Source: Pyrenophora tritici-repentis
Taxonomy: Eukaryota; Ascomycota; Dothideomycetes; Pleosporales; Pleosporaceae
Length of the DNA stretch: 64,000 nt
Direction: 5' to 3'
NCBI RefSeq assembly: GCF_003171515.1
Contig: NW_027093983.1
Span: 119,219-183,218, forward strand
Position numbers and translations under genes: made by a program. Below, in pieces: positions 20,542 to 61,047 of this stretch (position 1 is its first letter; each line of letters opens with the position of its first letter). The notes under the pieces are model-generated. The model made no database searches. It was not told where the DNA came from and worked only from the letters and a program-made list of their open reading frames with translations.

Positions 20542-20979
20542 TTATCTAGTAGTTCTACATAGACAGGTATTATCGCCGCAAAAAACCTTACCGTGGCAAT
20601 TTTTCTCTATACACCTAGAACCGCTATTATCCCTAACTCCCTTAATAACAGGATTATTCCCTGCACACCTTATATTCTTATATTTTTGAAAGTCATTTTC
20701 ACCAAATAGATGTTTTCTAGATGTAAAAGGATGGTCACAAGGTCTGTTATGGGAGTTATGTCTGGCAGGATACTGTGCAGACACCAATTTTTTATGTCAA
20801 GGTGAATTGGTAACCGTTAATAAAACGAGCATACCTGATAAAAGAGATATAAATGCTAAACAATACTTAAAACTAAGAATTCTTAGTTTTACTGTTTCTA
20901 ATGTAGCATTACCATGAGAGTAAGGTTCTAAAGGTACAGCCGCATAACACTTAGATACGTATTTTATAAAAATAGCCAT
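20542..20979 (-). CDS. Unidentified ORF, possible membrane protein
   Basis: 145 codons from ATG at 20979 to TAG at 20542 with one UGA-Trp at 20797. The frame stays open further upstream to beyond 21110 with another hydrophobic stretch (STIFSAVIFSVFSGWIFALC), so the real start may be non-ATG and inside the repeated leader. Hydrophobic helix FKYCLAFISLLSGMLVLLTV is followed by a basic, Cys/His-containing tail (KYKNIRCAGNNPVIKGV, HGKVFCGDNTCLC). No family recognised. Its 5' flank is the same repeated sequence that lies ahead of cox1, and its 3' flank the repeat found after cox2, which argues that it is or was an expressed gene. Confidence 0.4.
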
Positions 20980-21106
20980 TACATTTGAATCTGCACATAG
21001 TGCAAATATTCAACCTGAAAATACTGAAAATATTACAGCTGAAAATATTGTAGATCAACTAAATCCTGATTTTTTTGCGCTAAGGTTTTTGTATTCATGT
21101 TTTTTA

Positions 21107-21425
21107 GGAAATATGACTTTGCTACTAGAAAAGCGATTAAGAGAAGGGGATCAAGTGGTCACACTATGTATAAATATTTGGTGTAGGTATATATAATATA
21201 GATTATATATTGCTAAAAAAAGTTTTTTTACTACACTTATTATGGGAGTTATTGTAATAAAATATCTCAATTTTTTAATGATAAACCTTCTAATTTTATT
21301 ACAATTTACTTTTATTACAATTTACTATAGCAATAGTAAAAATGTCCTAATTTACGGGAGTTACTAATGTTTCTTGGGATTTTTTTTTTTACGCACTGGG
21401 GAGAATAAAAAAAAAACCCCCCAAA
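21107..21425 (-). repeat. Dispersed leader repeat, copy 2
   Basis: About 300 bp almost matching 48688-49040: TATGACTTTGCTACTAGAAA, GCGATTAAGAGAAGGGG, GTGTAGGTATATATAATATA, TTGCTAAAAAAAGTTTTTTT, then TATAGCAATAGTAAAAATGT. On the minus strand it forms the 5' flank of the ORF at 20542, as 48688-49040 does for cox1. Confidence 0.85.
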
Positions 21426-21657: not shown

Positions 21658-24600
21658 CTATTGTTCTTGTAATCAAGATAAGAATTTCTCTAAGGATACA
21701 GATTCTACAACAATAGGCATAGAACTGTGTAAGATACCACAAATTTCTGAACATTGCGAATTATTCTACGTTTATTTAATGTAAAAAGCAAGTATTATTG
21801 CTATACCAGTTAATAAATTATATGATTACACTAGTATCGTATTATTTGTGAGAAAAAGAATAGTCTTTATATCTTTTACCATCCTTTAGACGGAGATATA
21901 AAGTTTTTCTATCTAATTTTAGATTTAAATGAGTAGCAAAGTATTTTATTGTATCCGTAATACTTTCAAATTCTTCCTTAAAATTTTCACCTTTTACTAA
22001 AATAGATTTATTTTTTCTATTCACTTTTAAGACATCTGAGTCCGGATCTAGTTTTAATTTTTTGTATTCATCTATAATTAATCCTATATCTGAGAAGTTA
22101 TCCGGTAAAATATTCTCTGAATACTTGCATAAGAAGTGATCAAATTCATTTTCATCCTTTATATAGTTAGTAAGAGTGGCTCTTTTAATGGTTAAACCTA
22201 ATTTTCTTAAATATTCAATACAGGATGTTAATGAATCAAATTTTAAAGTTTGACCTATAAAATCTGAATTTACAAAGGTATTTCCCTCTTTTATTTCTAA
22301 TTCTACTGGAATACTTCTACGAGTTCCTAATCTGTACATATCCTTTCTTTCTTCTTTCATAATATCTACTAATTTATCCACTGGAATATTGCTTGTTAAA
22401 GCAGTAAGTATAGGATAGCTTAATAGCAAGAATCTATTAAGATACGGCATTTTGGAATCTACATACTTCTTACTAGTTATAGGATGTACTTTTAATACTT
22501 TTTTTAATTCAATACTAGATTTCGCATGATAATAAAGAGTACTACATCTTAAATCATAAACATATATAGGATTACCTGTTGAAGATCCTGCATTAACAAT
22601 TCTTAATGTATTCAAGTTAAATTCTTTATTTAATAAATGATATTGTTCTAAGATTAAGGCGTCTCTATAACTAAATATATTTCTATCTAATTTAAATATA
22701 ATTAGTTTAAAAGCTTTTAGCCCTTCTTTGTGAAGTAAAGGTAAAAATTTACCACCAGCTCCGCAGCCCCCGACTCTGAGAGTCGAAGGGGCTAAAGGAA
22801 AATTATCTTTAAAGTAGTAATCCATTCTACGTCTCAATAAATTAGATGAACCTACATATTTACTTCCTGTACTTTTATGTATAAAGATATATACACCAGA
22901 AAAACCTTTATACGGAGATTTACCAGTTAATTCGTCAAATAATTGTTTATCTTTTGTCGTAGATATAGGTAGATCTAATTCAACACCTTTAACTTTTAAT
23001 AATTCTTCTAATTTAGTGTCAGTAACGGATAAATTTTGATTTAACAATATTTTATTTATAATAAATGCATTAGCAGATTTTTCATTATTAATAAAATCTA
23101 GCGCTAAAGACTCTTCACTATTTGCCAAAGGTCTTATTGAATTAAAAAATCTTTTTGTACTATAATACCTAGTTGAAGATATAACAGCTATTGAACTAAT
23201 AGGTCCATCAAAAATGAAATTATTCTTAAATAAACTTTTGTTAATTGTATCGTGCAAACACTACATCGTCGTCATTTTTTTTTTTTAATAACTCTGTAAA
23301 CAAATACAACTACCGTATTTTTCTATAATAATTATACTATTACATTAAAATAGTCTAGCAGACTATTGTAGAAATCCCTAAATACAATTAATCTAATTAA
23401 TATATATCTATTTAACAAAAAACATAAAAAATACTTATGTCTTTCTGCACCTTTTCAGGAGGGGTCTGACTATATCTTAAGCATTATTAATAATAACAAT
23501 ACCAACCACCGTTTAGTCGATGAACTGCATACCAAATATTTTATATTTGGTACTTGGCTGCGGATTGCCCATTAAACTATAAATCTTGATTTTACTATAC
23601 CACGAGTCATTACCTGTGCCATAAGTTATGTTACCATACTTACTTAGTTAAGATTTCTTTAGGGGTTTCCCGTCAATTTGATGATTTATAACCATAGGTT
23701 CACTACAGTTTTGGCCATTGTTCATAAGACCATAGAATGTTCCTAATCTGTTAATTAAAACAGAGAATTGATTTAATCTCCCTGGATATGCATCACACTT
23801 TACTCCTAAAGCTGGTATGGCAAAACTGTGGATAACATCTGCTGCAGTAAGAATAAATCTAGTATGTGTTATTTCAGGAAGAATAACTCTGTTATCTACC
23901 TCTAACATTCTTAACGCTCCATCTTCTAAATCAGATTCAGGTACTAAGTAAGAATCAAACTCAATAAAATCTCCATCACTGTTTAAGAAATCTGGGTATT
24001 CGTAGCTTCAATATCATTGGTGCAAGGTAAAACAACCTTGATCGACTGTACATTAAGCATCAGATATACTGACACCCACAAGTGACCCAGTCTGTTGCAA
24101 TAAATAAAAAATAAACTATTTACTGACAGTTTTTTATTATTATCTGCCACCGATCGGTGTGATATTTAATATGATAATAATATTTTAACTGTTTTCACTC
24201 GTGTCGCCATAGAAAAGATTAAATATTTTCTATAAGAATCCCGTCGGAAACTTAGAGATAAACGGCTTTACCGTTTATCTCACGACTATCGCATATATGT
24301 GCAGGGGAGTTAGAAAAGCTTCTTCTCCTTAATCATACTATAAAAGATTAACGACAAAAAGTATATTGTTTTTATAATCCTAATTTATAGTACATAGATG
24401 TATGTAAATGAGGTAAAACTAGCTCCCTTAACTTAGGAACTGAGCTTCCTTTAATATAAATATTATGATTACCCGAAGGTTTTAGTGTTTGAATAGTACA
24501 ATTTAAACCAAATTTACTTTGAAGAACTTCAACTAGAAATTCTACTTCTTTTAATTTGAAACTATTTACAGCTAATCTTACACCAGGTTTAGCTCAACCT

Positions 24601-26856
24601 CCATCATCAAGTTTTAGATAATTGAAACTATACATAAGAAAATTTATATAAACCATTTAAAATCTTTTGATCTTTTATACGTCTACTTATTGTAAATCTG
24701 TTTAGATTTAAAGCTCTAGCTGCATCACTGACCGAATTATAACTTACTGTGTCGTTTGTAACGACATTAGTTACAACAAGAACATTACCTTTAGCTTTGT
24801 TTCAATTCATTAAACCTTTAGATAAGTTATCTCTGGCTAGCTCTACTCTTTTAAGGTGCTCTACTTTAGATATATCCTCTCTTAGAATAGTTATTACATA
24901 TCTACCCTTATAAGGTATTACGTCATTACTTTTTTGCTCAGATTTTTCCTTAGTTCAAAAAGCTTTAGTAGCTACCTTAATAACCTTGGAAGCTTCATCT
25001 ATTGAATCATAAGTAGTCGTTATATCTGTACTAAAATCATGTATCGACACTTTTAAGCGTTTATTTTTATTAAACTCTATAAAATTCGCAGAACCAGTTT
25101 TACGTATTAATTCAAGATGTTCTTTAGATAATACTCTAAGTTTAAATTTCAACAATGTTTCATCCGAATGTTTAAATCCTAAATTAGAACCAGCTGTTTT
25201 TAAAATGTTGTATTCAGGAGAATATAAATTTAAATAATGTTGCTCTCTAACTAATAGTTCCTTAGGTTCGCAATATTCTAGAATATCTAATTTAAAATTA
25301 CTATGACCATTCTTTAATAAAGCAAAATATATAAGACTTTTTGTTTTTAAGGATGCCCTTGTTAAATAATTAATAGAAAAATAACCTGAAAATCTTTTAG
25401 CTAAGTTAGATGAGCTACCTATATATGTTTTTCCACTTATTAAATTTGTTCAACGATATATTCCAGCCTTTTTCAGGTTCTATTTATAAATAACAGATTT
25501 AAATTTAATAGGGTTAGAATATGATGCAACAAAAGAGCTATCTTTAGTTGAATAGAATCTCTTACTTAATATATAATTTGTAGATGAAACTTTGTTCACA
25601 TCTCCTTTGCTGTACGAAGTATGCAAAGAAGAGCGTATATTGGTGTTAAAATATAATCCTATTTTATTTTTCATAGTAGGTAAAATGTAAGGTGAAACAA
25701 TCGAATGTAATAATTTAACAGATTCTTTATAAATTACTACTTTATAATACTTACCATGCACTATTACACCACAGTTAAGACCAAAACAACTAGTTAACAT
25801 ATTGTTTAACATTTCTAATTCTTGCGCAGATCTAAAAGGTGTGTTTAATTCCAATCTTCCTTGAACATATTTACCACTATCCATGCACCAGATAGCTAAT
25901 GCTAAGGGTGTTATGTATTTAACTAAATCCGCGTTAATATATTTTATCCCTTTTTTATAAAACATTTTATGTACTCAATTAAAACTTCTAAAAGTAAAGG
26001 TATTAAATTCATAACCATAATGAGTTTTATCATCACTACCTTTATTTTTTAATACTCTTTTATATATTCTAGGCTCTAAATTAGAACAATAACCTCTAGT
26101 GAAGAAAAAGTTATATAATCAAAATAAATAATCTTTATGTACAGTACTTTGTCTATAACAAAGTCTTGTACCTTCTACTGATCTTTTATTCGCATAACAA
26201 TCACCTAATAATGAACCAACTATAACTGAAATAACATCTAAGTTATGTGGACCTATTCTAGATGCAGCTTTTACTCTAGTATGGAACATACGGTTAGATG
26301 GTATTTTCTTAATAATATAATTTTTTTGGCCTGCTATAGTTAACACACAGGTGTCTTCTGTTTTATTTAATATATGCGATTTAGGGCCACCTAAAAAAAG
26401 ACCCTCTGCTAATACAGATAATGAAGGATCAGTAACTTCATCCATTAAATATAGTAACTTGAAAGAAGGGAAAGCAATTAATACTAAGATTAAAGCAGGT
26501 GTAATAGTCCATATTAATTCGATTAATGTACCGTGATTAAGATATTTATTACTTATAGGTGATCTAGAACTATCAAAATTTCTAATAATAGCTCCTTGTA
26601 TTCAACCTACAGCAAATAAAATAGCAACTAAGTAGTACATGATATTGTCATGTAATTCTACTAGCGCCTCCATTTGTGGGCTAGCACTGTCTTGGAAGTA
26701 AAGTCCTCAAGCTCTAGGTGCATCACAGCTAATTACACTAAAATCGAAAGAGAAAAATAGAATGAATGAAGAAATGAATAAAGAACATAGCCCTATAAAA
26801 ATATAAGGTGTTACACTTCTGTATTTAACAAATACTGATATACTTGCTGGATCCAT
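21658..26856 (-). CDS. cox2: cox2, cytochrome c oxidase subunit 2, in frame with cox1 (three exons)
   Basis: Carries the CuA site of complex IV. Exons: 26401 upward ([20 protein letters not shown] ... [15 protein letters not shown]), 23729-24022 ([19 protein letters not shown] ... NRLGTFYG), 21658-21757 ([20 protein letters not shown] to WLQEQ and stop TAG). The CuA ligands [16 protein letters not shown] (His) and [12 protein letters not shown] (Cys, Cys, His, Met) are intact. There is no stop between cox1 and cox2: the frame runs back from CDAPRAWG through a hydrophobic linker to cox1. The only in-frame ATG that could start cox2 alone is at 26854-26856 (MDPASISVF), but then cox1 would have no stop. 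Confidence 0.93.
21842..23257 (-). CDS. GIY-YIG homing endonuclease (cox2 intron 2)
   Basis: 471 codons from ATG at 23257 to TAA at 21842, no UGA needed. Catalytic motif [19 protein letters not shown] with RRRMDYYF behind it (about 22840-22920), then [20 protein letters not shown] (conserved Glu and Asn region). Between them is an inserted [11 protein letters not shown] coded by a GC-rich hairpin (22762-22798); it keeps the frame. The C-terminal 250 residues contain two weak repeats ([20 protein letters not shown] and [20 protein letters not shown]) that could be DNA-binding NUMOD-type units. Longer than usual but unbroken. Confidence 0.87.
   Translation of the reverse strand: MHDTINKSLFKNNFIFDGPISSIAVISSTRYYSTKRFFNSIRPLANSEESLALDFINNEKSANAFIINKILLNQNLSVTDTKLEELLKVKGVELDLPISTTKDKQLFDELTGKSPYKGFSGVYIFIHKSTGSKYVGSSNLLRRRMDYYFKDNFPLAPSTLRVGGCGAGGKFLPLLHKEGLKAFKLIIFKLDRNIFSYRDALILEQYHLLNKEFNLNTLRIVNAGSSTGNPIYVYDLRCSTLYYHAKSSIELKKVLKVHPITSKKYVDSKMPYLNRFLLLSYPILTALTSNIPVDKLVDIMKEERKDMYRLGTRRSIPVELEIKEGNTFVNSDFIGQTLKFDSLTSCIEYLRKLGLTIKRATLTNYIKDENEFDHFLCKYSENILPDNFSDIGLIIDEYKKLKLDPDSDVLKVNRKNKSILVKGENFKEEFESITDTIKYFATHLNLKLDRKTLYLRLKDGKRYKDYSFSHK
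23258..23728 (-). other. Group I intron core (cox2 intron 2, 5' part)
   Basis: The intron starts right after TTCTATGGT (GTFYG). Plus-strand blocks GACTATATCTTAAGC (23469), TTTAGTCGATGAACTGC (23512), TTGGCTGCGGATTGCCC (23552), ACGAGTCATTACCTGTGCCA (23599) and TTTCCCGTCAATTTGATG (23666) also occur, in this order, in the nad4L intron (14290-14540) and cox1 intron 6 (38650-39060). The core precedes the ORF, which lies near the 3' end. Confidence 0.8.
24372..24635 (-). pseudogene. C-terminal remnant of a LAGLIDADG_2 endonuclease (cox2 intron 1)
   Basis: 88 codons: [14 protein letters not shown] (second LAGLIDADG motif), then [20 protein letters not shown] and [12 protein letters not shown] with stop at 24372. 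It aligns with the tail of the split protein in nad5 intron 4 (5947-6183) and the end of the intact ORF at 9231-10010. Its front half is not present in this intron; the GIY-YIG ORF lies directly upstream and overlaps it by about 20 nt. Confidence 0.75.
24614..25479 (-). CDS. GIY-YIG endonuclease directly after a TAG in the LAGLIDADG_2 frame (cox2 intron 1)
   Basis: Same frame as the upstream LAGLIDADG_2 ORF, separated only by TAG at 25480-25482. Catalytic region [20 protein letters not shown] (25400-25465), then [20 protein letters not shown] (about 25200-25260) and [11 protein letters not shown]. The rest, with [19 protein letters not shown] and [18 protein letters not shown], looks like two NUMOD1-type repeats, the second ahead of an HTH-like ISRRIKDQK. 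Ends with TAA at 24614. No ATG lies near the front, so expression would need read-through of the TAG, reinitiation at an internal ATG, or a pre-mutation fusion. Probably recently disabled or weakly expressed. Confidence 0.75.
25480..26445 (-). CDS. LAGLIDADG_2 homing endonuclease fused to cox2 exon 1 (cox2 intron 1)
   Basis: In frame with the exon ([15 protein letters not shown]), continuing past the splice site at 26400 to TAG at 25480. Motifs [19 protein letters not shown] (about 26190-26245) and [17 protein letters not shown] (about 25860-25905); between them [19 protein letters not shown]. Both active-site acids (D of GD and MD) are present, so it should be active. It is the clear relative of the first, motif-damaged LAGLIDADG domain of the nad5 composite ORF ([18 protein letters not shown] against [18 protein letters not shown]). 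Confidence 0.87.

Positions 26857-26860
<4 letters not shown>
26740..26860 (-). other. cox1-cox2 junction with hydrophobic linker
   Basis: Codon-by-codon reading of 26701-26880 on the minus strand gives [56 protein letters not shown] with no TAA or TAG. The linker holds one membrane-length hydrophobic run. Known topology puts the Cox1 C-terminus in the matrix and the mature Cox2 N-terminus in the intermembrane space, so an added helix is what a real fusion would need; it could equally be the cleavable Cox2 leader. Confidence 0.88.
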
Positions 26861-48640
<21,780 letters not shown>

Positions 48641-48687
48641 GCTTATTCCAGATGTATTTGCGCTTTTCTCATCTTCGTTATTTTTAG

Positions 48688-49040
48688 ACAATATGACTTT
48701 GCTACTAGAAAAGCGATTAAGAGAAGGGGAGCAAGGGGTCACACTATGTAAAAATATTAGGTGTAGGTATATATAATATATATAGATTATATATTGCTAA
48801 AAAAAGTTTTTTTACTACACTTATTATTGTGGTTATAGTAATAAAATATAATGTTTATCATTAAGTTTTTGAACTATTTTATTACAATTTACTTTTATTA
48901 CAATTTACTATAGCAATAGTAAAAATGTCCTAAATTTACGGGAGCTACGAATGTAATTTGGATTTTTTTTTTATTTTACAGAATAAAAAAATGTATCAAT
49001 AACTTTACTCCCTAACTAAGCTAGTAAGGGAGATAAAAGT
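48688..49040 (-). repeat. Dispersed leader repeat, copy 3 (5' flank of cox1)
   Basis: About 300 bp near-matching 21107-21425. On the minus strand it lies directly upstream of cox1. The cox1 frame stays open into it (SLNRFSSSKVI), as does the ORF at 20542, but no in-frame ATG was found. It may hold a promoter or mRNA 5' processing site shared by the two genes. Confidence 0.8.
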
Positions 49041-49109
49041 TAAAGCTACACTATTTTTTTTAGTGACCCTGTAGTACCTAAAAAATGTAATAACTAAAAA
49101 ATGTTATAT

Positions 49110-49430
49110 TACCATGTTGCAGTGCTGCTGCTCTTGCTGGCCATGCTGCTGCTTTTACCGCTCATGCGTATGATGTGACAGATGTTGCTGCTCGTGATAA
49201 TGGTGTTGTTATTATGCTGCCTTCTCGAATGGGCTGATGGCTAGCCTTGGCACTAGGACAGTTCAGGGAAGCTATCGTTGAGACTATGGATCAACAAGGA
49301 AATAACATGTCATCTGAAGACTACAGTACTTTTGCCTATGTGCAAAGAGGTACACATGTCGGAATATTCGAATACCACAACACTGCAACCATCCTGGATG
49401 AAGAAGGGGTTCCGAATAAGGGGGGGGGAG
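49110..49430 (+). other. GC-richer island of apparent foreign (nuclear-like) origin
   Basis: About 50% GC by eye against about 25-30% around it, with codons unlike mitochondrial genes here (GCT GCT GCT CTT GCT GGC). One frame is open across it: LAGHAAAFTAHAYDVTDVAA, LPSRMGWWLALALGQFREAI, STFAYVQRGTHVGIFEYHNT. It stops sharply at a G9 tract (49421-49429), after which AT-rich plasmid RNA polymerase sequence follows in the same frame. I do not recognise the protein. Confidence 0.55.
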
Positions 49431-51275
49431 AAGTGCGAGTTAAAAAGGACTTATTTAAACGTTATATTTTACCTACAGATAATTTAAAAAAATTTTTTGA
49501 AAAGTTTACTTTTATAGACAGTGAAGAAATTCCTATGTTAGTTAAGCCTTTACCTTGAAAAATTAACAATGAAGGTGATATTGTTGAATATGGTGGTACA
49601 TATACTAATAATAAATATAAATTGGAACCTCTAATATCCAATACTTATAAAAACCCTATAGCAAATGACACTAAATTTAATGAGGATTACATAAATACTA
49701 TCAACAAACTATCATCTAACGGGTTTAAAATAAATAGAGATGTATTTGACATTCTAACTAAAAAAGAGTATTATACAAAGGACAATAAAAGTTTAGTTTT
49801 TTTTAAACCTCATGAAGAAACCAGTCTTTTAAGTAGTTACTTAAACGAAAAAAACTATGTTAAAGTTAATGAAATCGTATCATTTAATAGTAAATATCTT
49901 AAGAAACTTCCGTTTTAAACTTAGCTAGATTAATGGTAAATGTAGATGAGTTTTTTTTAACAGTTTTCGCGGATTGAAGAGGGAGAATTTATACATCCCG
50001 TTCTATTTTAAATATGCAAGGGGGTGAATTAGCTAGAGGATTGATTATGTTTTCAAAAGGTGAAATATTAAAAGATGAAGGATTGCGTGCTTTGAAGATT
50101 TATACAGCGAATGCTTTTGGTTTAGATAAAAAATCTAAAAAGTGTAGAATTAATTGAGTCGATAAACAATTTAATAATATTATGAATGTACCTAATAATG
50201 ATCTTTGATTATCTGCTGATGAACCTGTGTTGTTTTTAGCTTGCTGTTTAGAATTACAGAAATATGGCAATAAAAACCACAACTTTATTTCAAGATTACC
50301 AATTCTTTTAGATGGTACATGCAACGGTCTTCAACATTTAAGTGGAATAGCCTCTGACTTAAACTTGGCTGAAAGAGTTAACATTACACCTTCTACGGAT
50401 GATAATACACCTAATGATATTTACTCTGATTTAATCCAACCAATTAGAGATTCTATAAAAAATTTAGTTGAAAAAGAACCAGGACATTATAACCTTTTAA
50501 AATTAAATATTAAAAGAAAACTTATAAAAAGAGGTATTATGACTATAACTTACGGTGTGACCGTTAAAGGTATATTAGAACAATTACTTAGTGAACATTT
50601 CTACAAATTTGGTTTATTGGATAATCATTATATATACAGACCTAAAGATGTTGATCTTGGTGATGTTTGTTTAACGTATAAGGATTTATACGCTTTAAGT
50701 GTAATTATTTATAACACATTATTTAAAGCACATCCTACCTTAAACAACATTATGGAATATTTTCAAGACATGGTTATATTAATGAATGATTTAAATGTAG
50801 CTGTTCAATGAGTAACTCCCTATGGATTAGTTATTAAGCAAAAATATTATAAATTTACAAAATATGATATAACCAGTTTAATGCAAGGTAGTCGTAAAAA
50901 GGTTACATTGAAAAAATACGCTGTCGATGATGAAAAAATACCACTTATTAATAAAGATAAACAAATTAACTCATTCATTCCTAATTTTATTCACTCAATG
51001 GATGCTACAAATATTGTTCTCTTAATTAAAAGAGTGCAAGATGATTTTAAATTTGACGTAGTTACAATCCATGATTGTTTTGGAGTACATTCTAATAATG
51101 TAGAATTATTAAGTTATCTAGTTAAAGTTTTATCGCTATATATGGTAACAAAGATAGTATAGATAAATTTCACACACATATGTTAGAAAACATGAAAGCC
51201 GTGCATACGGTTTGCGATGATGTAGTGATAGATGAAACAGGTATTTCGTTTAGTATACCTAAAAACCTGTTTTAG
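49431..51275 (+). pseudogene. rpo: Plasmid-type single-subunit RNA polymerase, frameshifted
   Basis: T7-like mitochondrial-plasmid RNA polymerase. Visible motifs: ADWRGRIY (49967-49990, palm aspartate), LDGTCNGLQHLSG (50315-50355), KLIKRGIMTITYG (50520-50560, O-helix Lys and Tyr), NFIHSMDA and IHDCFGVH (about 50985-51095, second catalytic Asp). Lesions: frame change near 49900-49918 (KKLPF-stop, resuming LNLARLMVNVDEFF), another near 51140, after which YGNKDSIDKFHTHMLENMKA and SIPKNLF finish at 51275. The N-terminus is replaced by the GC-rich island. With two frameshifts it is probably dead. Confidence 0.85.
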
Positions 51276-51404
51276 GTGAAATGGATCTGAGAGCTCAGTT
51301 GTTAGAGTCAAAATATTTTATTAATTAGTTATAATATATTACAGTTACTATAACTAATTCAAGTAGTATATTGATTATTAACTCTATTAAACCAACAATA
51401 ATGT

Positions 51405-51475
51405 AGCTTTAATAAAAAAAAAGTTTTTTTTTAGTCTGATAGTATTATCAGACTTTTTTTTTTATTATACCTAGC
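51405..51475. terminator. Hairpin between convergent rpo and dpo
   Basis: A-run, T-run, then GTCTGATAGTATTATCAGAC (perfect inverted repeat around ATA/TAT) followed by T10. Symmetric enough to act on both strands; sits between the 3' ends of two convergent genes. Terminator function in mitochondria is inferred. Confidence 0.5.
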
Positions 51476-51687
51476 AGAAATAATTTCGAGGTTTGTGTAT
51501 AGTATTAGTGTTATTTACACTAAAATAATAGAATAAAAAAAAACACCACTATATGTTGAATGGTGCTCAACAATTTATGGTGTAAAAAAACTAATTTATT
51601 TGTTAAGTTAACCTCTTAAAGTTAAACTAGTTTATTTTAGAAATGGAATAAATATAATAATTTCATTTAATGAAACTTTGTCGTAAT

Positions 51688-54147
51688 TTAAATAATTGCG
51701 GAGAATGTTAAAGGTTTTGTCATGTTCACATGTAGTTGTGTGAAAGGTATAAGGGATAAAGAACAATTGTGAAAAGTATTTAAAACCAAGCTGTGTCTAC
51801 CCTTTTCAAATATTGTTAGGGCTGTCGGTAGAATTTGTAATAAAGAATTAACCACTAAAGGTGAAGTACCCATTCACCTACCTTTTGAGTAAATTTTATT
51901 ACGTTTATTGTATTCACCTGTAATAACTAACTCTTGGTCGTCAACTACTTTAACAGTTTTATTCACAATATCTTTATGTCAACGTGTGTCAGTAACTTTA
52001 ATCAACTCAGCCTTGTATAAAGAGATATAATCAGATAAAGACAATTTACCACTATACCCCTTAGATTTACTAACTATTCCACCATTAGTGTCCAGAAGAT
52101 ATAGTTTAGATGCTGGAAATATAGCTTTCTTAATCATGCCGCCATACTCTAATTTAAATTGACCAATCCCAATCCCTATTAAATCATTATTTAGTGGATA
52201 ATCTAAAAAAACAGAGTCTGTGTCTGAATAGTATGCATTGGCTAAGTAAGGGTACATTATAATACGTGCCCAGCTAGCTGTGGCAGCAGCTATGGGGGAT
52301 GAATTCATGATAGTATCCTCATTATCCGAATATTTTAGCATTTCAAGGTCGTAATCTTTTCCATTTTGCTCACATTTTATTCTACTACGTAGTTTACTAT
52401 TTAGAACGAATATTTTTTTATCCAACTGAATATAGCTTTTAATATCAAACAATAATTCAATTTTATTGTATTTTTCTAAATCAACCATCTTAATTTTGTC
52501 ACGCTCATTACTCATACCCATTCTACCAAATATAGAATTCATTGTTAGTTTTGCTGAATTACGTTCAGCAGCGGATGCGGCAAGCATTTTTTGGTTATAA
52601 AAATCTATAATAAAATCTTTAAATGTATTTACACCACGGTCAAATATAAAACTTTCTACGACTTCTATATGATAACCATAATGCATAGCTAATTTGATTT
52701 CTTCTGAAAAGTATCACCCTTCTCAACTACCCAGAGTGGGGGGGGGGGGGGGAAAAATGAATTTACTTTCCCCAGTTTTATCGATAATACGGCAAGGTAA
52801 TACAGGTTTGTCTATGTATGAAGGTGTATTAATTTTAACTTTGACAAAACCAAATATTTTTGTAATATCTTTTTGTAAACTATAAATCGGCGTTCCAACT
52901 GGCATATCTTTAAGCATTGCATAGGGGTAAAGACTATTAATGTCATAGCAAAATAATCCGTAACCTGTGGGTTTAAATACTTCCGTTCTTCCTCCAAAAA
53001 ATGAACTTCTAACCGCATATTCTAAATCACCTCTACATCTGGGCAGTAATATGTTTTTATTTAAAAAATTACTTCTAATAATTCCCATTGATATAGAAGG
53101 TAATGTTGGATAAGTTGTAATATTAAGTCTGTAATTACTAAAATAGTATTGGTCAGCTTTCTGTAATATTTGGTAGAGGGATATTACATCGTTACTTAAA
53201 TATTCTAAAGTTTCTTTTTTTAAATCTCAAACTTTATTTTCGTAATATTTAATAAATCCATCGTAAACGATTATAGTATCTAGACTCTCTTCAAAGTATT
53301 TTATATCTGGAAGATAACCTTTATAGTTTAAATTATTTACATTAACAAACTTATAAGGGAAAACACTCTTTTTTACTTTAACTTGATAACTATGCCCTAA
53401 ATGTAACTTAGAACTGGGTAATATTGCGTAAGAATCGGCAAAACGAAGACATACTGTATTTTTGTCTTTTTTATATGAAGCTTTGAAAGATATAATACTA
53501 TTTACTTTAGAAAGTAAATTACGGATGTTATATAATTTATCCATAATAGTAAATATAAATGCAATGTCAAATCCACCTAAATTATGTGCATAAGCTGTGT
53601 AGTTATTGTATTTAATGGCCATCATATCACGAATAAACTTAACTAACATTTCCTCTCAACTGTTAAAGTCTGTTACATAGTATAAATTTTTTTTTCTACC
53701 ATCATAAAACCCACAAGCATAAGGTACAAATTCCTTTTTTTCATTAGTGTATGCCTCTTTATCAAAAGTTAAAAATTTATCTTTTCTTTTTAATTCTTTT
53801 ACTTTTTTATCTATGAATTTAACATCTTTGTAATATTCTAAATTAATCCATCTGTTGTTTTCCCCGTATTGTGCGTATGTTAAATTTTTACCGCTTTCAA
53901 AACTACGAATTAAAGTATTATCATGCATAACATCTTCCACATTAACAAGAAAAATCAGACCATCTTCTTTTTTTCTGTAAACAGTAAGAATATGATGCTC
54001 ATTATAGATAACAATTTTAACATTTATTATAAACTTATCATTGTATAAATATGATATAGTATTCTCTTTATAACTTAAAGCAACACCGTAAAAAAATAAA
54101 TTCATAGTTTGAGGTAATCAATTAGGCGATAAAAGTCTACTATTCAT
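51688..54147 (-). CDS. dpo: Plasmid-type family B DNA polymerase, intact
   Basis: 819 codons from ATG at 54145-54147 to the stop at 51688, continuous with UGA-Trp at several places; a TAA lies just upstream of the start. Protein-primed polymerase of invertron-type linear plasmids. Exonuclease motifs: FDKEAY (Exo I, about 53770), YAHNLGGFDIAFI (Exo II, 53560-53600), YLSNDVISLYQIL (Exo III YxxxD, about 53170-53205). Polymerase motifs: YDINSLYPYAM (motif A, 52910-52945), KLTMNSIFGRMGM (motif B, 52505-52545), YYSDTDSVFLDY (motif C, 52205-52240). A 15-C tract at 52740-52754 codes a Pro run without breaking the frame. No terminal-protein domain was recognised. The partner rpo is broken. Confidence 0.92.
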
Positions 54148-54339
54148 GTCTAATTAAGAGAATCAGGCTTATACACTGTATTATTAATTCGCCCCCCACT
54201 ATATGATAATTCAGGGTCCTTGACTTTTAAATAAAGAGCTCAAGAAAAGAAGCTGAAGGGATACGGATACCGTGTTGGAAAGAGATTTAACACTCGAAGC
54301 GGAAAAAACTGAAGATTTTTGAGGAGGGTAAAACGGGTA

Positions 54340-54700
54340 TAACAGAAAATGTAGGATTTGAATATTATGTACCCACCTTTACAAACCATCCTGCTTACCA
54401 CATTCAAATCATCCTTCATTTATTCTTCCGGCTTCCCTAGTTATACTTCCTTTTTGGATTTTCCCTCCAATCTTCTTTTCGGCCATCTTCCATTTTCTCA
54501 TGCCTTCCTCAGCCTCATGCTTCCATTTGTCGCATTCCTCTTCCAACATATCGACCTTATCCGCCTCAGCAGCCTCCTTCTCCTTTCTCAAATACTCCAT
54601 GTGTGTGACGGCTTGTCTCGCTGGGTACAACAGAGCATGCGGAGTAGGATGTAGGAGTTTGTATTCAAAATGGCCCCCCCTCTCCTTGTTGGTTGTGTAT
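54340..54700 (-). other. Second GC-richer nuclear-like island with a coiled-coil reading frame
   Basis: Roughly 50% GC, in contrast to its flanks. The minus strand 54409-54630 codes a charged, heptad-like stretch (MEYLRKEKEAAEADKVDMLE, WKHEAEEGMRKWKMAEKKIG), typical of a nuclear coiled-coil protein and unlike any mitochondrial gene here. Ends near a C7 tract (54673). Probably transferred from the nucleus; no function is claimed. The opposite-strand frame of similar length is its shadow. Confidence 0.5.
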
Positions 54701-55350
54701 TTGTTGGTATTGTTTGAACTTAGTACATCTTTTTTCTATATTTTTTTTTTTATTATTTATCATAGATAAATAACTAAAAAAAAATAAAGAACCCTGCTTT
54801 TTCTGTTTACGCTTTAAAGACCTGTTTCTAAATGTCTTATGTGTTCTGTCCGGTGTTAGCGTTCAGCTCGGTACATGTCCACCTGGGTATCTACAAATGA
54901 TAAGGGACAAACTTCCATCCATAATTGTTAATATAAATTAAATGTAGAAAATGAATATTATATTATTCATTTTATAGTAATGTATAATAGCTAGGATAAT
55001 AATATAATTTAATACTAGTGCATTACGATATAGTGGTTTAAGAGTTATTTCTATAAAAAATAAAAAAATCATATGGATTCTATAGAATTTAATAGTAATG
55101 TAATGGGTATACTCCAAAACCCGAGTGAATGGTTATGAAAATATATAACCCTTTTTATCATTTACATATGATTTCTTATATATAGAATGGTTTAATAGTT
55201 ATATAACATAATAAGAAAAATCATATGGATTCTATAGAATTTAATAGTAATGTAATGGGTATACTCCAAAACCCAAGTGAATAGTTATGAAAATATATAA
55301 CCCTTTTTATCATTTACATTTACATTTTATAATACTTTTATGAGATAATA
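54700..55350. repeat. AT-rich spacer with a tandem duplication
   Basis: No gene seen. 54742-54787 holds TTATTTATCATAGATAAATAA between T- and A-runs, the centre of the family-A palindrome. 55040-55180 and 55195-55325 are two tandem copies of one ~150-bp unit (AATCATATGGATTCTATAGA, GTAATGGGTATACTCCAAAA, ATATATAACCCTTTTTATCA) differing at a few bases. Possibly an intergenic control region ahead of the rRNA/tRNA cluster. Confidence 0.7.
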
Positions 55351-55357
55351 AGAAAGA

Positions 55358-55427
55358 TTCTTAGTAGTTTAATGGTAGAACAAGATAGTTCTAATACCCT
55401 AATCTAAGTTCGAGTCTTAGATAAGAA
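55358..55427 (+). tRNA. trnR: tRNA-Arg (TCT), copy 1
   Basis: Acceptor TTCTTAG/ATAAGAA with a mismatch at the innermost pair; D-arm GTTTAATGGTAGAAC; anticodon loop GTTCTAA (TCT); T-arm CTAAG-TTCGAGT-CTTAG. The anticodon stem AGATA/TACCC is poorly paired, so this copy may be decaying. Confidence 0.6.
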
Positions 55428-55489
55428 TAACGATTTCTATAGTAATAGCTATTCATTTAATAAGATAGCTAGATTTATTCCAAAAAAAA

Positions 55490-55559
55490 TTCTTATTAGT
55501 TTAATGGTAGAACAAGATATTCCTAATATCCTAATCTAAGTTCGAGTCTTAGATAAGAA
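55490..55559 (+). tRNA. trnR: tRNA-Arg-like (CCT), copy 2
   Basis: Acceptor TTCTTAT/ATAAGAA, 7 bp. Anticodon loop TTCCTAA (CCT) on stem AGATA/TATCC with one mismatch. Rest as copy 1. CCT would read AGG. Confidence 0.6.
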
Positions 55560-55620
55560 TAACGATTTCTATAGTAATAGCTATTCATTTAATAAGATAG
55601 CTAGATTTATTCCAAAAAAA

Positions 55621-55690
55621 TTCTTATTAGTTTAATGGTAGAACAAGATACTTCTAATATCTGAATCTAAGTTCGAGTCTTAGATAAGAA
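55621..55690 (+). tRNA. trnR: tRNA-Arg (TCT), copy 3
   Basis: Best-formed copy: acceptor TTCTTAT/ATAAGAA, anticodon stem AGATA/TATCT perfect, loop CTTCTAA giving TCT (reads AGA), T-arm CTAAG-TTCGAGT-CTTAG. Likely the functional gene. Confidence 0.82.
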
Positions 55691-55745
55691 TAACGATTTC
55701 TATAGTAATAGCTATTCATTTAATAAGATAGATTTATTTAAAAAA

Positions 55746-55810
55746 TTCTTATTAATGGTAGAACAATATATTCCTAATATCCTAATCTAAGTTCGAGTCT
55801 TAGATAACAA
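55746..55810 (+). pseudogene. tRNA-Arg-like, truncated copy 4
   Basis: Five bases are missing in the D-arm (TTCTTATTAATGGTAGAAC), the acceptor 3' strand is ATAACAA instead of ATAAGAA, and the anticodon loop is TTCCTAA. Unlikely to be charged. Confidence 0.65.
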
Positions 55811-55874
55811 AGATAGTTAGAACGAATAGGTTTTAATTTACTATATTGTTTAGTTAGATAATAAATAGTACTTT

Positions 55875-58800
55875 ACATTTTGGGATTTTTATTTGAGTTT
55901 GATGATGGCTCTGAGTGAACGCTATGTAAATGCTTGACACATGCTAATCGAACGTCAATATTTAATTTGTATAAATTATGTATATTGAAGTGGTGTACAG
56001 GTGAGTAAGTGGTATTATGGCTACCTAAGAGTAAGGCAAAATAAATCCCTTATAATAACAATTTATTATAATTTATTAATACTATATCTAATCACCCGAT
56101 GGTCGATTATATTGAAAAGTTTAGATATAAAGGTTAATAATATTAAAAATAAATGTGTTTAAAAGAAATAGTATTTCGCTCTTAGTTGATTATTAATAAC
56201 CATCGGATAAGTAGTAAGTATGGTAATGGCATATTTAGCTTATGTCCGTAGTCAAGACTGAGAGGTCTATTGACCACACTGGGTCTGAAAAAACCCCAGT
56301 GCGTGTAGTACAGCAGTGAGGAATTTTGGTCAATGGCCTAACGGCTGAACCAGCAACTTGCAGGAATGAGAGTTAATATAATAAGTTTATTAACTTGCTT
56401 GACTAGGTCTTATAAAGTTCTGGATAAAGCTTATTATGAAAACTTTATATCCATAGGTCTCGACCAAATCTTGTGCCAGCAGTCGCGGTAAGACAAGGGA
56501 GACGAGTGTTATTCATCTTTAACAGGTATATAGGGTACCTAGACGGTGTGCAATGGCTTAAATAAGTACCTGGTACACTTGAGTTTGATATGTGAGAGGA
56601 ATATGTCGGAATTGTTGGAGGAGAGATGAAATTTGTTGATACCAATAGGACTGATAACGGCGAAGGCAAACCTCTATGTACATGTACTTGCTATTTCTAA
56701 ATTAGAAGAAATTTCTCATATATATTTTATTTAAAGGAGGAAAAAAAGCGATGTGAAAAAAGCGATGTCCTTTTAAAAAGGGATCTCTCGACAAATTTTA
56801 TATAAAAGAGGAAAAAAGCAATGTGCTATAACTGACGTTGAGGGACGAAGGCTCAGATAGTGAAGAGGATTAGATACCCCCGTAACCTGGGCAGACAATG
56901 ATGAGTGCCATAGGTTGGCTTTAAGGCGGAACTATAAATGAAAGTGGAAGCACTCCACCTCAAGAGTAATGTGGCAACGCAGGAACTGAAATCATTAGAC
57001 CGTTTCTGAAACCAGTAGTGAAGTATGTTATTTAATTCGATGATCCGCGAATAACCTTACCACAATTTGAATGACCTAAAATATTGTTAGCCTAGGGCTA
57101 GTTAACCCTAGGTTATAAAGTTTTAGACCACATGCGTTGCATGGCTGTCTTCAGTTAATGTCGTGAGATTTGGTTAGGTCCATTAAATTAACGTAAACCC
57201 TTGTTTTATTTATTACAATAAAGCAGCTCTCCGCTTACAATTGGATGTGATAATAGGGACTAAGACAAGTCATCATGGCCTTAATATTGTGGGCTGATAA
57301 GTGTTGTAGGAATACACTAGATTGGCTAAAACTATCAAATTACGGGGACCTCCTAAAGCTTCTGGTACCAAGCTGTAGTCGAAAGTCTACAAGTGGCTGA
57401 ACTAATTACTCAGGTACGGTAATAAGCCAGAAGATGAATGAAAATGAAATGGATAATCGCGTATCTAAATCAGAGTTTAAATTAGATCATAAGAAAGATC
57501 TTGTGTTAAACTCTGTAAAAGAGCAACGAGTAGACGGTAGTTGACCTCTTTTTATAAAAGCCAATCCAATAAATATAAAAAGAAGTTTAAGGTATACACT
57601 AATAGGCCTTGAGAGAGGTTGCCGAAGTTTTAATAACGTAGGCCTATTTTCAAATACAATTGAAAGTAGTAAGATCAAAATCCTTACTAAGGTGTCATTA
57701 AGTAAAAATTATAATACTTTAGCAAAATGTAACCTAGATCCTTGATTTCTAACAGGTTTTTCAGATGCTGAAGGTTCTTTCATTATTTCTATTTATAGAG
57801 ATGAGAAAAGTAAGTTTAAATGAAGAGTTTCGGCGTACTTTTCTATTCACATCCATGTTAAAGATGTTTTATTATTGGAACAAATTCATAAAACTTTTGG
57901 AGTCGGTACTCTTCGTAAAAACAATGAAAACACGGTTCTATTTAGAGTTAGTGATATTAAAGAGTTACAAACAATCATAGATCATTTTAAAAATTACCCG
58001 TTAGTTAGTGCCAAATATTCTGATTTCCTATTGTTTGAACAATGTTTTAACATAATTAAAAAGAAAGAGCATTTAACGTCGGATGGTTTTAAAAGAATAT
58101 TAGATTTACGTGCTTCACTTAATAAAGGTTTATCTCCTGAATTAAAGGAAGCTTTCCCTTTAGTCCTACCTGTAACTAGAAAAGAGTATGTTTTTAATGA
58201 TATACCTAATCCTTTATGAATTTCTGGGTTTGCTACTGGAGATTCTTCGTTTAGGGTTTCTATAGAAAATTCTACCAGCAAAATTGGTAAAAGAGTTAGG
58301 TTATGCTTTGACACTTGTTTACATATTAGAGAAACTACTCTTTTAGAGGGAATCGCAAAGTATTTTAGTTTATACAATTCCCATGTAACTGCTTCCAATA
58401 AAGAAATGTCCATTCAATGTTCTGAAAAGAACCAAACTTGCTTATTGCAATTTAGAAATAACTCAGACATAGATAATAAAATCATACCTTTTTTTAAAGA
58501 ATACCCTTGCCCCTGCAACCCCCAACTACGTAGTCGTTGGAGGGTATAAAAGGTGTAAAGGCTTTAGATTTCAATGATTGATGTAATGTGGCTGAATTAG
58601 TAAAAAATAAAGAACATTTAAGTAAAGAGGGTTTAAATAAAATTACAGAGATTGCGAATAACATAAACTTAAATAGAAAATGATAAATAATTATAATCTT
58701 AATAATTACTATGTTAAATTTGATTTCCATGATAGACGTGCCACATATGCCTTTACAAAGGGATGCAATAATGCGAATTGGAGCTAATCCCCAAAACAGG

Positions 58801-59075
58801 ATAAAGTATGGATTGTAGTCTGAAATTCGACTACATGAAAAAGGAATTACTAGTAATCGTGAGTAATCACATCACGGTGAATTTTATCTCAGATAGGTAC
58901 TAACCACTCGTCAGGCGCTGAAAGGAGTATGTGCAATAAGTTTGGTGGCTGCGGATTGCTAGTCTAAATGTACAGGTTTAGATCTTTTGGCAGAAATATC
59001 TTCGTATGCGTGACTCTAATTGGTGTTAAGTCGAAATACGGTTCGGGTTGGGGAACTAGCCCGGGATAAATTAAA
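55875..59075 (+). rRNA. rns: rns, small-subunit ribosomal RNA with one group I intron
   Basis: Starts near GAGTTTGATGATGGCTCTGA (55894). Universal SSU blocks follow in order: CAGCAGTGAGGAATTTTGG (56311), GTGCCAGCAGTCGCGGTAAG (56473), GATTAGATACCCCCGTAAC (56868), GCATGGCTGTCTTCAGTTAA (57140), CAAGTCATCATGGCCTTAAT (57264), GGAATTACTAGTAATCG (58842), CACTCGTCAGGCGCTG (58905) and GTTAAGTCGAAATACGG (59026). The intron is 57296-58734, after GTGGGCT and before GACGTGCC. The 3' end is approximate. About 130 nt at 56690-56830 are an AT-rich insert with three GGAAAAAAGCGATGTG-like repeats in a variable region. Confidence 0.92.
57434..58549 (+). pseudogene. LAGLIDADG endonuclease in the rns intron, tail cut by a GC hairpin
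   Basis: Open from ATG at 57434 (inside the core; GAGCAACGAGTAGACGG at 57521) to TAA at about 58547. First motif WFLTGFSDAEGSFIISI (57743-57795), second WISGFATGDSSFRVSI (58218-58262). At 58505-58548 a GC hairpin (ACCCCCAACTACG) replaces the expected sequence and adds a stop; after it the usual C-terminal block resumes (KGVKALDFNDWCNVAELVKN, LSKEGLNKITEIANNINLN) to about 58684. Loss of the last ~45 residues makes activity doubtful. Same subfamily as the nad4L and nad5 intron 2 ORFs. Confidence 0.8.
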
Positions 59076-59095
59076 ATTAACGATACACCCAAAAA

Positions 59096-59166
59096 AAGAG
59101 CTCGGTTTAGTCTGGAATAGGTTAGGTGTGGCTAACCAGTTTAAGGGTGCAAATCCCTTAGCTCTT
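59096..59166 (+). tRNA. trnH: tRNA-His (GTG), probable
   Basis: Acceptor AAGAGCT/AGCTCTT, 7 bp perfect; anticodon arm GGTTA-GGTGTGGC-TAACC, where T-GTG puts GTG at the anticodon but with an 8-nt loop; T-arm AAGGG-TGCAAAT-CCCTT. The D-arm (CGGTTTAGTCTGGAATAG) is weak. Identity is less sure than the tRNA call. Confidence 0.6.
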
Positions 59167-60131
59167 ACATGCAAAAAACAATAAAAACATTTATAATTTT
59201 ATCTAATTCTATTACTTCAAGGCGAGACAAATCTAATTTTTTCTATTCTCATTTCTCTAAAACCATTTCTTCAAGACGTGACAACCTACTCAAACAAGGG
59301 TTAGCTCTAAATTACTTAGAAAGTGTCTTTGGCCTTTATAACCAGTATTAAGTATGAAATAAGTAAATACGAATTGCAATGGAAGAACAAACGAGTTGTA
59401 ATTCATTATAAGTTGGTGAATAAGCTCTGGTCGAAGACCTAATTACTCATGAAGTATTAGGGCTTAGACCATTCCACTAGGCCTGAAGGGAACCTCAACA
59501 GAGGGAGTAGTCGTAAGAGAGTTATTTAATTGAAATAGGTCCGGGCGACGCCTTTAAGGCGGCTGGCCCTGCGGTTAGGTCACCACGAACTTTTTAACGC
59601 TACGGTCGGTTATGGATTGAGGACGTAAATCTCCTTAAACTTAAGAGCCAGCAATCGAAATAGTTCGACGTTTAACTCAGCGTTATCCAGCTTGGGGAAA
59701 GGTTCACTAATCCACTGTGGGGATTTCCCCTTTAGGAAATCCATAAGGATTTCCCGATGGAAATAGGAACACCTTGTCAATGTTATTTGAAAAGGAAACA
59801 AAAGGATTCCTGCTAGACATATTAGATTAGGCCTACTTGAATCTTTTATTGGACCTTTCTTTAGAAGTGATTTAACAGTGGTCATTTCCTTTATGGGGGC
59901 CTTTAACCTTCGTTATACATTTGACTTTCGACGGCTGAACACAATAAACCTAGACGACTTTTTATGAAGAATGATTAAGAACTATATATATAGTAAAATA
60001 AAAATTATGAAAACATAAACAAATTTAAAATGGAAAACATTATTTACACTAATGAAAAAATCACTAAAAAAAAAAAAGTGTGGGGTTCGGCTATGTATCC
60101 GGGTCCTTTTGGACCCAGAACCCCCTTAAAA
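59167..60131. other. Spacer without a recognised gene
   Basis: A 60-codon plus ORF (59169-59351, with two copies of TSRRDxxNFF/SSRRDNLL) and a 91-codon minus ORF (59610-59885) exist, but neither resembles a family I know. The stretch 59440-59700 is GC-richer and structured (GGCGACGCCTTTAAGGCGGC, CTTTAGGAAATCCATAAGGA), and could hold an unassigned structured RNA. 60099-60116 is a small GGGTCC-TTTT-GGACCC hairpin. Confidence 0.4.
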
Positions 60132-60213
60132 ATCCGAGTGCTGGAATTGGTAGACAGGACAAATTTAAGCTTTGTTGACGTTATGTCGTGAACGTTCAAG
60201 TCGTTCTTCGGAT
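60132..60213 (+). tRNA. trnL: tRNA-Leu (TAA)
   Basis: Acceptor ATCCGAG/TTCGGAT; D-arm GCTGGAATTGGTAGACAGG; anticodon stem ACAAA/TTTGT with loop TTTAAGC, anticodon TAA; long class II variable arm (GACGTTATGTCGTGAAC), as expected for leucine; T-arm GTTCAAGTC. Confidence 0.92.
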
Positions 60214-60298
60214 AAAAGGTACACGAAAAACCTCGTCAAGTTAAAAGGGATAAGACCTCTACACTAAGACTTTAAAGGTTAGCCCCGGCGTCTTCTTG

Positions 60299-60518
60299 CG
60301 CCTGCAACCCCCAACTACGAAGTCGTTGGAGGGTAACTTTTTTTTGATATATATTTGATTTTTCAAAAAGTAAGAAAAGAAGAAGGGGGCTGCGTATGAC
60401 TTTTTATGTCTAATATTTTTAGGCCCCCCCTCTCTCTTTTTTTTTTCTTTTGCAGTGTTTAGTAGTGGATCTAGGCAAAAGAAAAAAAAAGAGGAAGAGA
60501 GAGGGGGTCCAAACCGAA
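60299..60518. repeat. Spacer with GC hairpin (copy 3) and T-run/A-run palindrome
   Basis: 60299-60337 is the third copy of the CCCCCAACTACGAAGTCGTTGG hairpin (written here without its last bases). 60425-60500 is a palindrome: CCTCTCTC, T-run, CTTTTGC, spacer, GCAAAAG, A-run, GAGAGAGGG. No gene seen. Confidence 0.8.
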
Positions 60519-60602
60519 AGGAGAGTTCCTTTATTGGTAAGAAGGGTTGAGCTGTAAACTCAATAGTATTACGCTTTTAAGAGTTCGAATCTCTTGTCTC
60601 CT
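60519..60602 (+). tRNA. trnY: tRNA-Tyr (GTA)
   Basis: Anticodon stem TTGAG/CTCAA, loop CTGTAAA, anticodon GTA; D-arm CCTT-TATTGGTAAG-AAGG; extended variable region (TAGTATTACGCTTTT), usual for fungal mitochondrial Tyr; T-arm AAGAG-TTCGAAT-CTCTT; acceptor AGGAGA/TCTCCT. Confidence 0.9.
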
Positions 60603-60677
60603 AAAATATAATTAAATGTTTATATTGTATTATAAATATAATTCTTAAATAGTTAATTTTATACATTACATTATTTA

Positions 60678-61047
60678 ATAGCTTTTATAGCTCAATGGTA
60701 GAGCGGAATACTGTTAATATTCTGATAAATGTTCGATTCATTTTAAAGGCTTGCAAAAATAGAGAGTTTATGCCTACTATTTTGCAGGTTAAGTTAATTC
60801 CAAGAGCCTTTGGCTTTTTGAGTATAATTACTTAACACATTATTATTTCAAACAATGATACAAATGATTATAAAGGGCAGCTTATACCTCATATTTATAT
60901 ATGCATGATCATTTGTGAATGGCTATTATAATAGTAATATAGACTAGGTATACTTTTTACTTATATAATCGTAATATAGACTAGGCATATTTTTACTTAT
61001 AGAATAGCTATAGAATAGTTATGAAAAGGGTAAAAGAATAATTTTAT
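60678..61047 (+). repeat. Inverted repeat, copy B (tRNA-Asn plus nad6 leader)
   Basis: Matches the reverse complement of 19630-20001 over about 370 bp (for example CTTATACCTCATATTTATAT and TAGACTAGGCATATTTTTAC in both). Ends at the nad6 ATG. Confidence 0.9.
60681..60750 (+). tRNA. trnN: tRNA-Asn (GTT), copy B
   Basis: Same as 19928-19997 except acceptor GCTTTTA, which pairs with TAAAGGC through one G-U. Otherwise intact; both copies could be used. Confidence 0.9.

Follow-up and report, generated by a model that had tools for sequence, protein, structure and literature searches.

How are two separate oxidase subunits obtained from genes that share one reading frame? Cox1 and Cox2 rank with the most conserved proteins of aerobic organisms; as a rule they are synthesised separately, and their ends lie on opposite sides of the membrane. 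The question is raised by the cox1-cox2 locus of Pyrenophora tritici-repentis, which lies in the window analysed here, a stretch of 64,000 bases (bases 119219-183218 of the 183,218-base contig C41) from an assembly of 40.9 Mb in 41 contigs; the contig is a fungal mitogenome rich in introns. On the minus strand at 26347-27132, read with translation table 4, the end of cox1 (FTSLPLQS), a linker and the start of cox2 (CDAPRAWG...LSVLAEG) follow one another with zero TAA or TAG codons, and the five TGA codons of this frame specify Trp under table 4. This confirms that one uninterrupted cox1-linker-cox2 frame exists at the locus, as an earlier sequence-only reading had claimed; that reading was also right about the linker, which it put at about 42 residues and which measures exactly 43 (129 bases), while its frame start at 27133 is corrected to 27132. 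On the comparisons given below, we consider the chances somewhat better than even that the frame is translated into a single polyprotein, that the linker crosses the inner membrane and that an inner membrane peptidase cut at I-S-C/D (the slash marking the cut) releases Cox2.

The openness of the linker alone proves little, since 43 open codons at the local base composition have a chance probability of about 0.07, which is not rare; in both of the other minus-strand frames, however, the linker is interrupted by stops. Protein and Pfam searches across the assembly found one cox1 locus and one cox2 locus, plus a degenerate cox2 head behind nad4. As neither gene was found on its own anywhere else, both subunits should come from the fused locus. 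The same in-frame arrangement is present in all 120 listed of 627 database matches, for which the query spanned the junction, so that fused proteins rank first and the search favoured fusions. For instance, two records with identical linkers (P0004 and P0005, source jgi) match the last 38 residues of the window linker at 37 positions and continue in the same frame into cox2. Similarly, a different fungus (L003) has the same arrangement with a different linker of 22 residues; the DNA identity of the flanking exons is 96.4% for cox1 and 91.9% for cox2, whereas an alignment of the two linkers scores no higher than one of shuffled sequences (the score is reached in 34 of 300 shuffles). The same junction in relatives, which the sequence-only reading had proposed to look for, is thereby found, and because the frame and most of the linker occur in other database records, it is not a sequencing slip. 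Unfused fungal-looking cox1 genes stop at or near LPLQS, at once in L069 and after 5, 7 and 9 residues in L092, L068 and L093, respectively. The linker was also tried as an intron and rejected: 129 bases are too short for group I or II, and Rfam at gathering thresholds found none there.

Linkers were compared in 122 proteins, namely the 120 listed matches together with P0001 and P0002. The anchors FTSLP[LIV]QS and then CDAP[RK]AWG stand within one protein in all 122, and between them lie 15-404 residues with 108 distinct sequences. Clustering by the last 60 residues, with an identity cut-off of about 55%, gave 76 representatives, 51 of which are long (linkers of at least 60 residues). A zinc-ribbon-like pattern, C-x(1-2)-H ... 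CD(F/M)(N/S) ... H ... CxxC ... CxxC, is present in 20 of the 122 linkers, for which zinc binding is inferred from the pattern; Pfam named no domain in the ribbon-like members scanned (P0009, P0017, P0043). Other linkers are acidic or helical, or consist of 22 mostly hydrophobic residues. The window linker matches the final part of ribbon-like linkers, with a local BLOSUM62 score of 149 against P0009 (at most 48 in 300 shuffles) and a match to P0247 as well, and it is without the zinc-ribbon part; it therefore looks like a deletion product, a shortened form of the longer zinc-ribbon-like linker of its closest relatives. The earlier description of an added hydrophobic linker thus holds as to hydrophobicity and addition, though the element is not simply an extra helix. 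A database search with one ribbon-like linker alone returned six proteins, all of which run directly into CDAP, and no free-standing protein of this kind; with a profile built from 19 zinc-ribbon-like linkers, the best further match in this mitogenome was unconvincing (E 0.13).

Further loci came from scans of other collections. An IMG/VR scan with a 16-base cox1 end gave 43 loci, among them L034, which is the L003 contig, and two other IMG/VR scans gave L003 and L004, and L091 (again the L003 contig), L092 and L093. A scan of genome contigs gave 28 loci. Five of them (L063, L067, L068, L069 and L090, the last a fragment) hold eukaryote-like cox1 sequences filed under bacterial genomes; L064-L066 and L070 hold cox2 heads that are not fused, and L071-L089 are bacterial by title. 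L063 (1324-2838, +) is a fungal-looking contig filed under a Nocardioides metagenome-assembled genome (MAG) and carries a cox1-cox2 frame with a nine-residue linker. L067 (1636-3594, +), a fungal-looking contig under a Caulobacter MAG, carries a cox1-nad4L fusion as one open reading frame (ORF) of 652 residues, which nad5 overlaps by one base.

Because the end of Cox1 lies in the matrix and the start of Cox2 lies outside, a fusion needs one membrane crossing. A 19-residue window with a Kyte-Doolittle (KD) value of at least 1.6 is found within the last 40 residues of 46 of the 51 long representatives, and in 39 of the 51 the terminal hydrophobic segment exceeds shuffles of its own sequence at p<=0.05. 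Across all lengths, such a terminal window is present in 65 of the 75 representatives of at least 19 residues. In 61 of 76 representatives the N side of the best segment carries a higher net charge than the C side (the reverse in 7), and counting K and R alone the N side is higher in 51, equal in 17 and lower in 8; a more positive N side is as expected for an N-in/C-out segment. An AlphaFold2 model built with 33 aligned sequences places a low-confidence helix at residues 108-128, and only this helix position was used. The argument that an extra helix would make the fusion topologically workable is favoured, though unproven, by these comparative data.

The second conserved element is a putative cleavage motif at the linker end. 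At position -2 before the Cys, 42 of the 76 representatives have Ile and 62 have Ile, Val or Phe (binomial p ~2e-16 and ~6e-19, respectively, against the composition of the last 40 residues). The entropy at this position is 1.95 bits compared with 3.18-3.45 bits at the other eleven of the last twelve linker positions, so that -2 alone is clearly constrained; under stricter clustering, Ile is still found in 32 of 56 and 21 of 37. Cys at -1 of the cut is present in 122 of 122, but this Cys belonged to the search pattern. In an alignment with chains from the PDB, I134-S-C/D137 of the window lies over I-M-N-D of 6giq_b, and the chains 6hu9_b and 8ucj_b begin at that Asp; 6giq and 6hu9 are yeast structures. 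Relative to the proposed cut, the window has Ile at -3 and Asp at +1, and Imp1 sites prefer such residues. The genome encodes Cox20 and two S26 peptidases, L062, which presumably corresponds to Imp1, and L061, presumably Imp2, both assigned by reading motifs in the ORFs. In yeast, Oxa1 has been reported to export the N-terminus of Cox2, which Imp1/Imp2/Som1 then cleave together with Cox20 (PMC5086520). The suggestion of the sequence-only reading that the linker may be cleaved like the Cox2 leader therefore gains favour from the comparative data, though it is unproven.

In the proposed mechanism, a single polyprotein would be translated from the joined frame, and the linker helix would carry the chain from the matrix, where Cox1 ends, to the intermembrane space, where Cox2 begins, replacing the short Cox2 leader of yeast. 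Imp1 with Cox20 would then cut at I-S-C/D, and the linker would either stay on Cox1, forming its C-terminal tail, or be removed by a further protease. Since the requirement would be confined to the ends and the frame, recombination could freely replace the middle, which may account for the range of lengths among the 122 proteins.

Several observations weigh against this mechanism. A second 19-residue window of KD at least 1.6, upstream of the last 40 residues, is present in 25 of the 51 long representatives (for example P0014 and P0050); the topology would be spoiled if this window crossed the membrane too, which slightly lowers our confidence. The linker of L063, with nine residues and Ser at the Ile position, and that of P0114, with only 15 residues, are so short that the hydrophobic stretch must borrow the Cox1 tail (KD 1.63 and 1.47, respectively). 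P0082 (41 residues) lacks a hydrophobic segment (best KD 0.82), weak segments are found in P0081 and P0091, and those of the 22-residue linkers are borderline (about 1.3-1.7). The quality of the AlphaFold2 model is low, with a mean pLDDT (predicted local distance difference test) of 52 and a pTM (predicted template modelling score) of 0.27. Asn at -1, as in yeast Cox2, is replaced by Cys in the window, and part of the Ile signal may come from shared descent.

Four rival explanations have to be weighed, of which a separate start of Cox2 inside the linker, with Cox1 ending by unknown means or carrying extra residues, is unlikely but retains the most credence. An in-frame ATG stands exactly behind LPLQS in the window, MDP opens 7 of the 122 linkers, and unusual cox2 starts have been published, UUA in Coniothyrium glycines (PMC6221350) and AAU in Shiraia (PMC4366305). 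Met is absent from 32 of the 122 linkers (16 of 76 representatives), although non-ATG starts are possible, and among the 14 linkers with DP near the start, 7 have Met ahead of the DP and the other 7 have V, A, T, L or E; both observations make an internal start less likely. In addition, Cox1 is not followed by a stop in any of the 122 proteins, though proteins of this kind were favoured by the search.

Slightly less probable is that the RNA is cut or edited between the genes to give two mRNAs, with a cox1 that has no stop codon or an edited one. The authors of the Stemphylium report mention this possibility (PMC5626475), but it leaves unexplained why the frame, the terminal hydrophobic segment and one Ile are kept across dissimilar linkers of up to 404 residues. 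A fusion protein that stays uncut and functions as one chain is given less weight again; its topology closes given one extra helix, yet the linkers range from nine (L063) to 404 residues and share no common body, while a cleavage-like end is kept, and the fused ORF of Acanthamoeba is stated to yield two products (PMC5626475). A missed stop, frameshift or pseudogene, which might be suspected from the single contig and the chance openness of the linker, is very improbable given the sole copy found in the genome, the same junction in other records and the codon changes relative to L003 (in the cox2 exon 13 are synonymous and 2 nonsynonymous, though the cox1 exon has 4 and 3, respectively).

A polyprotein with an exchangeable middle raises the matter of how linkers turn over, and several records contain rearranged copies. 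In P0003 the series cox1 tail, linker, cox2 head runs twice within one frame, the second time with another linker, and P0007 and P0008 have two cox1 tails each. The host nad4 (L002 1219-3084 (-), C41:23655-23825) runs in frame into the degenerate cox2 head (..DLNVIS CDAAVYWGLYIQNSAS..) and a Cys-rich tail; here and in relatives, nad4 ends ..FD.NVIS and the cox2 head follows. Among 120 listed relatives of the host nad4 tail, 49 pass from the nad4 end to CD[AGS] as at the cox2 head, the query having contained the cox2-like head so that such run-on proteins rank first. P0129 and P0132 have a long cox2-like stretch, and P0181 combines nad4 with a piece like a cox1 tail and with nad1. The linker end was considered as nad4-derived, and from these sequences the nad4 and cox1-cox2 loci seem to have exchanged sequence, in one direction or the other. 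It is plausible that recombination between short copies of the cox1, cox2 and nad4 ends drives linker change. Between cox2 and nad4L, an ORF at 20542-21270 (-) of the window combines a piece similar to the N-terminal leader of cox1 (SPSLNRFSSSKVI) with a Cys-rich tail resembling, by eye, that of nad4; it has no Pfam match.

It may be proposed, tentatively and at somewhat less than even confidence, that the Pleosporales Cox1-Cox2 junction is a hypervariable slot in an essential polyprotein, in which the flanks, the frame, the terminal helix and the I-x-C/D cut are held and the rest is swapped by recombination, and that a third, rapidly changing mitochondrial polypeptide is set free from the slot, which in many species would be a zinc-ribbon protein with its C-terminal helix as the anchor. 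Long linkers, if released, would make up a class of mitochondrially encoded proteins that evolves fast and is as yet undescribed. A naturally occurring range of fusions, with linkers of a few to hundreds of residues, reveals the minimum needs of a membrane polyprotein, and the expression of stop-less cox1 genes becomes directly testable.

The features of the locus are collected in Table 1, in which the list of cox1 exons omits a few very short ones. A manual splice of the locus gives about 527 residues of Cox1, the linker and about 239 residues of Cox2. Behind cox2 exon 1, the same frame continues into an intronic ORF (window 25480-26856, -), and unspliced RNA there would yield Cox1-Cox2 joined to the intronic ORF product.

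Table 1. Features of the cox1-cox2 locus, in window coordinates.
Feature	Position	Strand	Basis
Last coding exon of cox1, end of Cox1 with matrix tail (PRRISDY...FTSLPLQS)	26857..27132	-	alignment to yeast Cox1 residues 437-534
In-frame linker between Cox1 and Cox2, 43 residues	26728..26856	-	
In-frame ATG right behind LPLQS, possible internal start	26854..26856	-	sequence; Met not conserved among linkers starting xDP
Predicted linker membrane helix, 19 residues, KD 2.37, K and R on N side	26746..26802	-	
Predicted cleavage motif I-S-C/D, proposed cut between 26725 and 26724	26722..26733	-	alignment to 6giq_b I-M-N-D; Ile enrichment
cox2 first exon (CDAPRAWG...LSVLAEG), two membrane helices	26401..26727	-	
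cox2 second exon (HQWYW...GTFYG)	23729..24022	-	
cox2 third exon (QCSEICG...LQEQ), stop after it	21661..21756	-	
Upstream cox1 exons, split by introns with ORFs resembling homing endonucleases	29892..48646	-	
cox1 exon pieces recognised (edges approximate)	48359-48646, 46627-46719, 43048-43146, ~42470-42600, 38449-38526	-	
Further cox1 exon pieces (edges approximate)	~34860-35028, 33696-33854, ~32265-32320, 29892-30062	-	

Elsewhere on the contig, window 49439-64000 (C41:168657-183218) is a 14.6-kb inverted repeat, 99.9% identical to C41:80709-95284, and the opposite contig end (C41:1-14143) repeats window 48614-62791 in inverted orientation; these repeats are either real structure or the assembly of alternative forms. 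ORFs at 49175-51162 (+) and 51688-54147 (-) resemble, by eye, a mitochondrial-plasmid RNA polymerase and a type-B DNA polymerase, and three consecutive tRNA-Arg genes with the anticodons tct, cct and tct lie at 55357-55692 (+).

The sequence-only reading knew of no cox1-cox2 fusion in fungi, which was wrong, as cox1/2 single ORFs have been published for Pleosporales (PMC5626475, PMC6221350, PMC11167856). Such an ORF has been reported in Stemphylium lycopersici, Didymella pinodes and Phaeosphaeria nodorum, and fused cox1/2 is also cited for Acanthamoeba, Dictyostelium, Polysphondylium and Paracercomonas (PMC5626475). A cox1-cox2 polyprotein was suspected in Coniothyrium glycines (PMC6221350), and in Bipolaris cox1 is described as "seamlessly adjacent" to cox2, "resembling a fused gene" (PMC11167856). 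The Shiraia annotation has a TGA stop for cox1 and an AAT start for cox2 immediately next to it (PMC4366305); if TGA is Trp as in code 4, these two genes too would form one frame. Exserohilum and Periconia are the named fungi among the listed junction matches, with the database names "cytochrome oxidase subunits 1 and 2 polyprotein" (P0067, Periconia digitata) and "subunit 1/2" (P0121, Exserohilum turcicum); those near the top for nad4 are Edenia, Coniothyrium, Bipolaris, Corynespora and Curvularia. No match to atp9 was found on the mitochondrial contig C41, and its absence has been reported for Pleosporales (PMC6221350). By its contents, the mitogenome thus looks pleosporalean. The excerpts of four Leotiomycetes papers (PMC8260586, PMC8767329, PMC4162613, PMC6877775) contain no fungal cox1-cox2 fusion, and those of PMC8393795, PMC7225605, PMC10085805, PMC6467859, PMC8847149 and PMC11881002 contain nothing useful on the linker. 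No description of linker variability was found in the open-access literature searched, which is not proof of absence. The fusion itself is thus known in Pleosporales, and the linker is the part undescribed in that literature.

Compared with the published Pleosporales cox1/2 ORFs, the locus shows the same single stop-free frame, the same gene order and no second copy found. The linker of Stemphylium, estimated at about 23 residues from the published 2,370 bp (789-527-239), is of another kind than the 43 residues here, and the parts of the Pleosporales reports consulted are silent on the linker and its hydrophobic segment, on how it varies and on any cleavage motif. The cox1/2 of Acanthamoeba castellanii and Dictyostelium is likewise one ORF in a separate lineage; in Acanthamoeba, the one cox1/2 ORF is stated to give one mRNA and two products (PMC5626475). 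The yeast Cox2 leader is similar in the Ile three residues ahead of the Asp that starts mature Cox2, in an N-terminus that must reach the intermembrane space, and in the Imp-type peptidases and Cox20 that are encoded in this genome as well. Unlike in yeast, the "leader" here would be Cox1 together with the linker, and Cys rather than Asn stands before the predicted cut.

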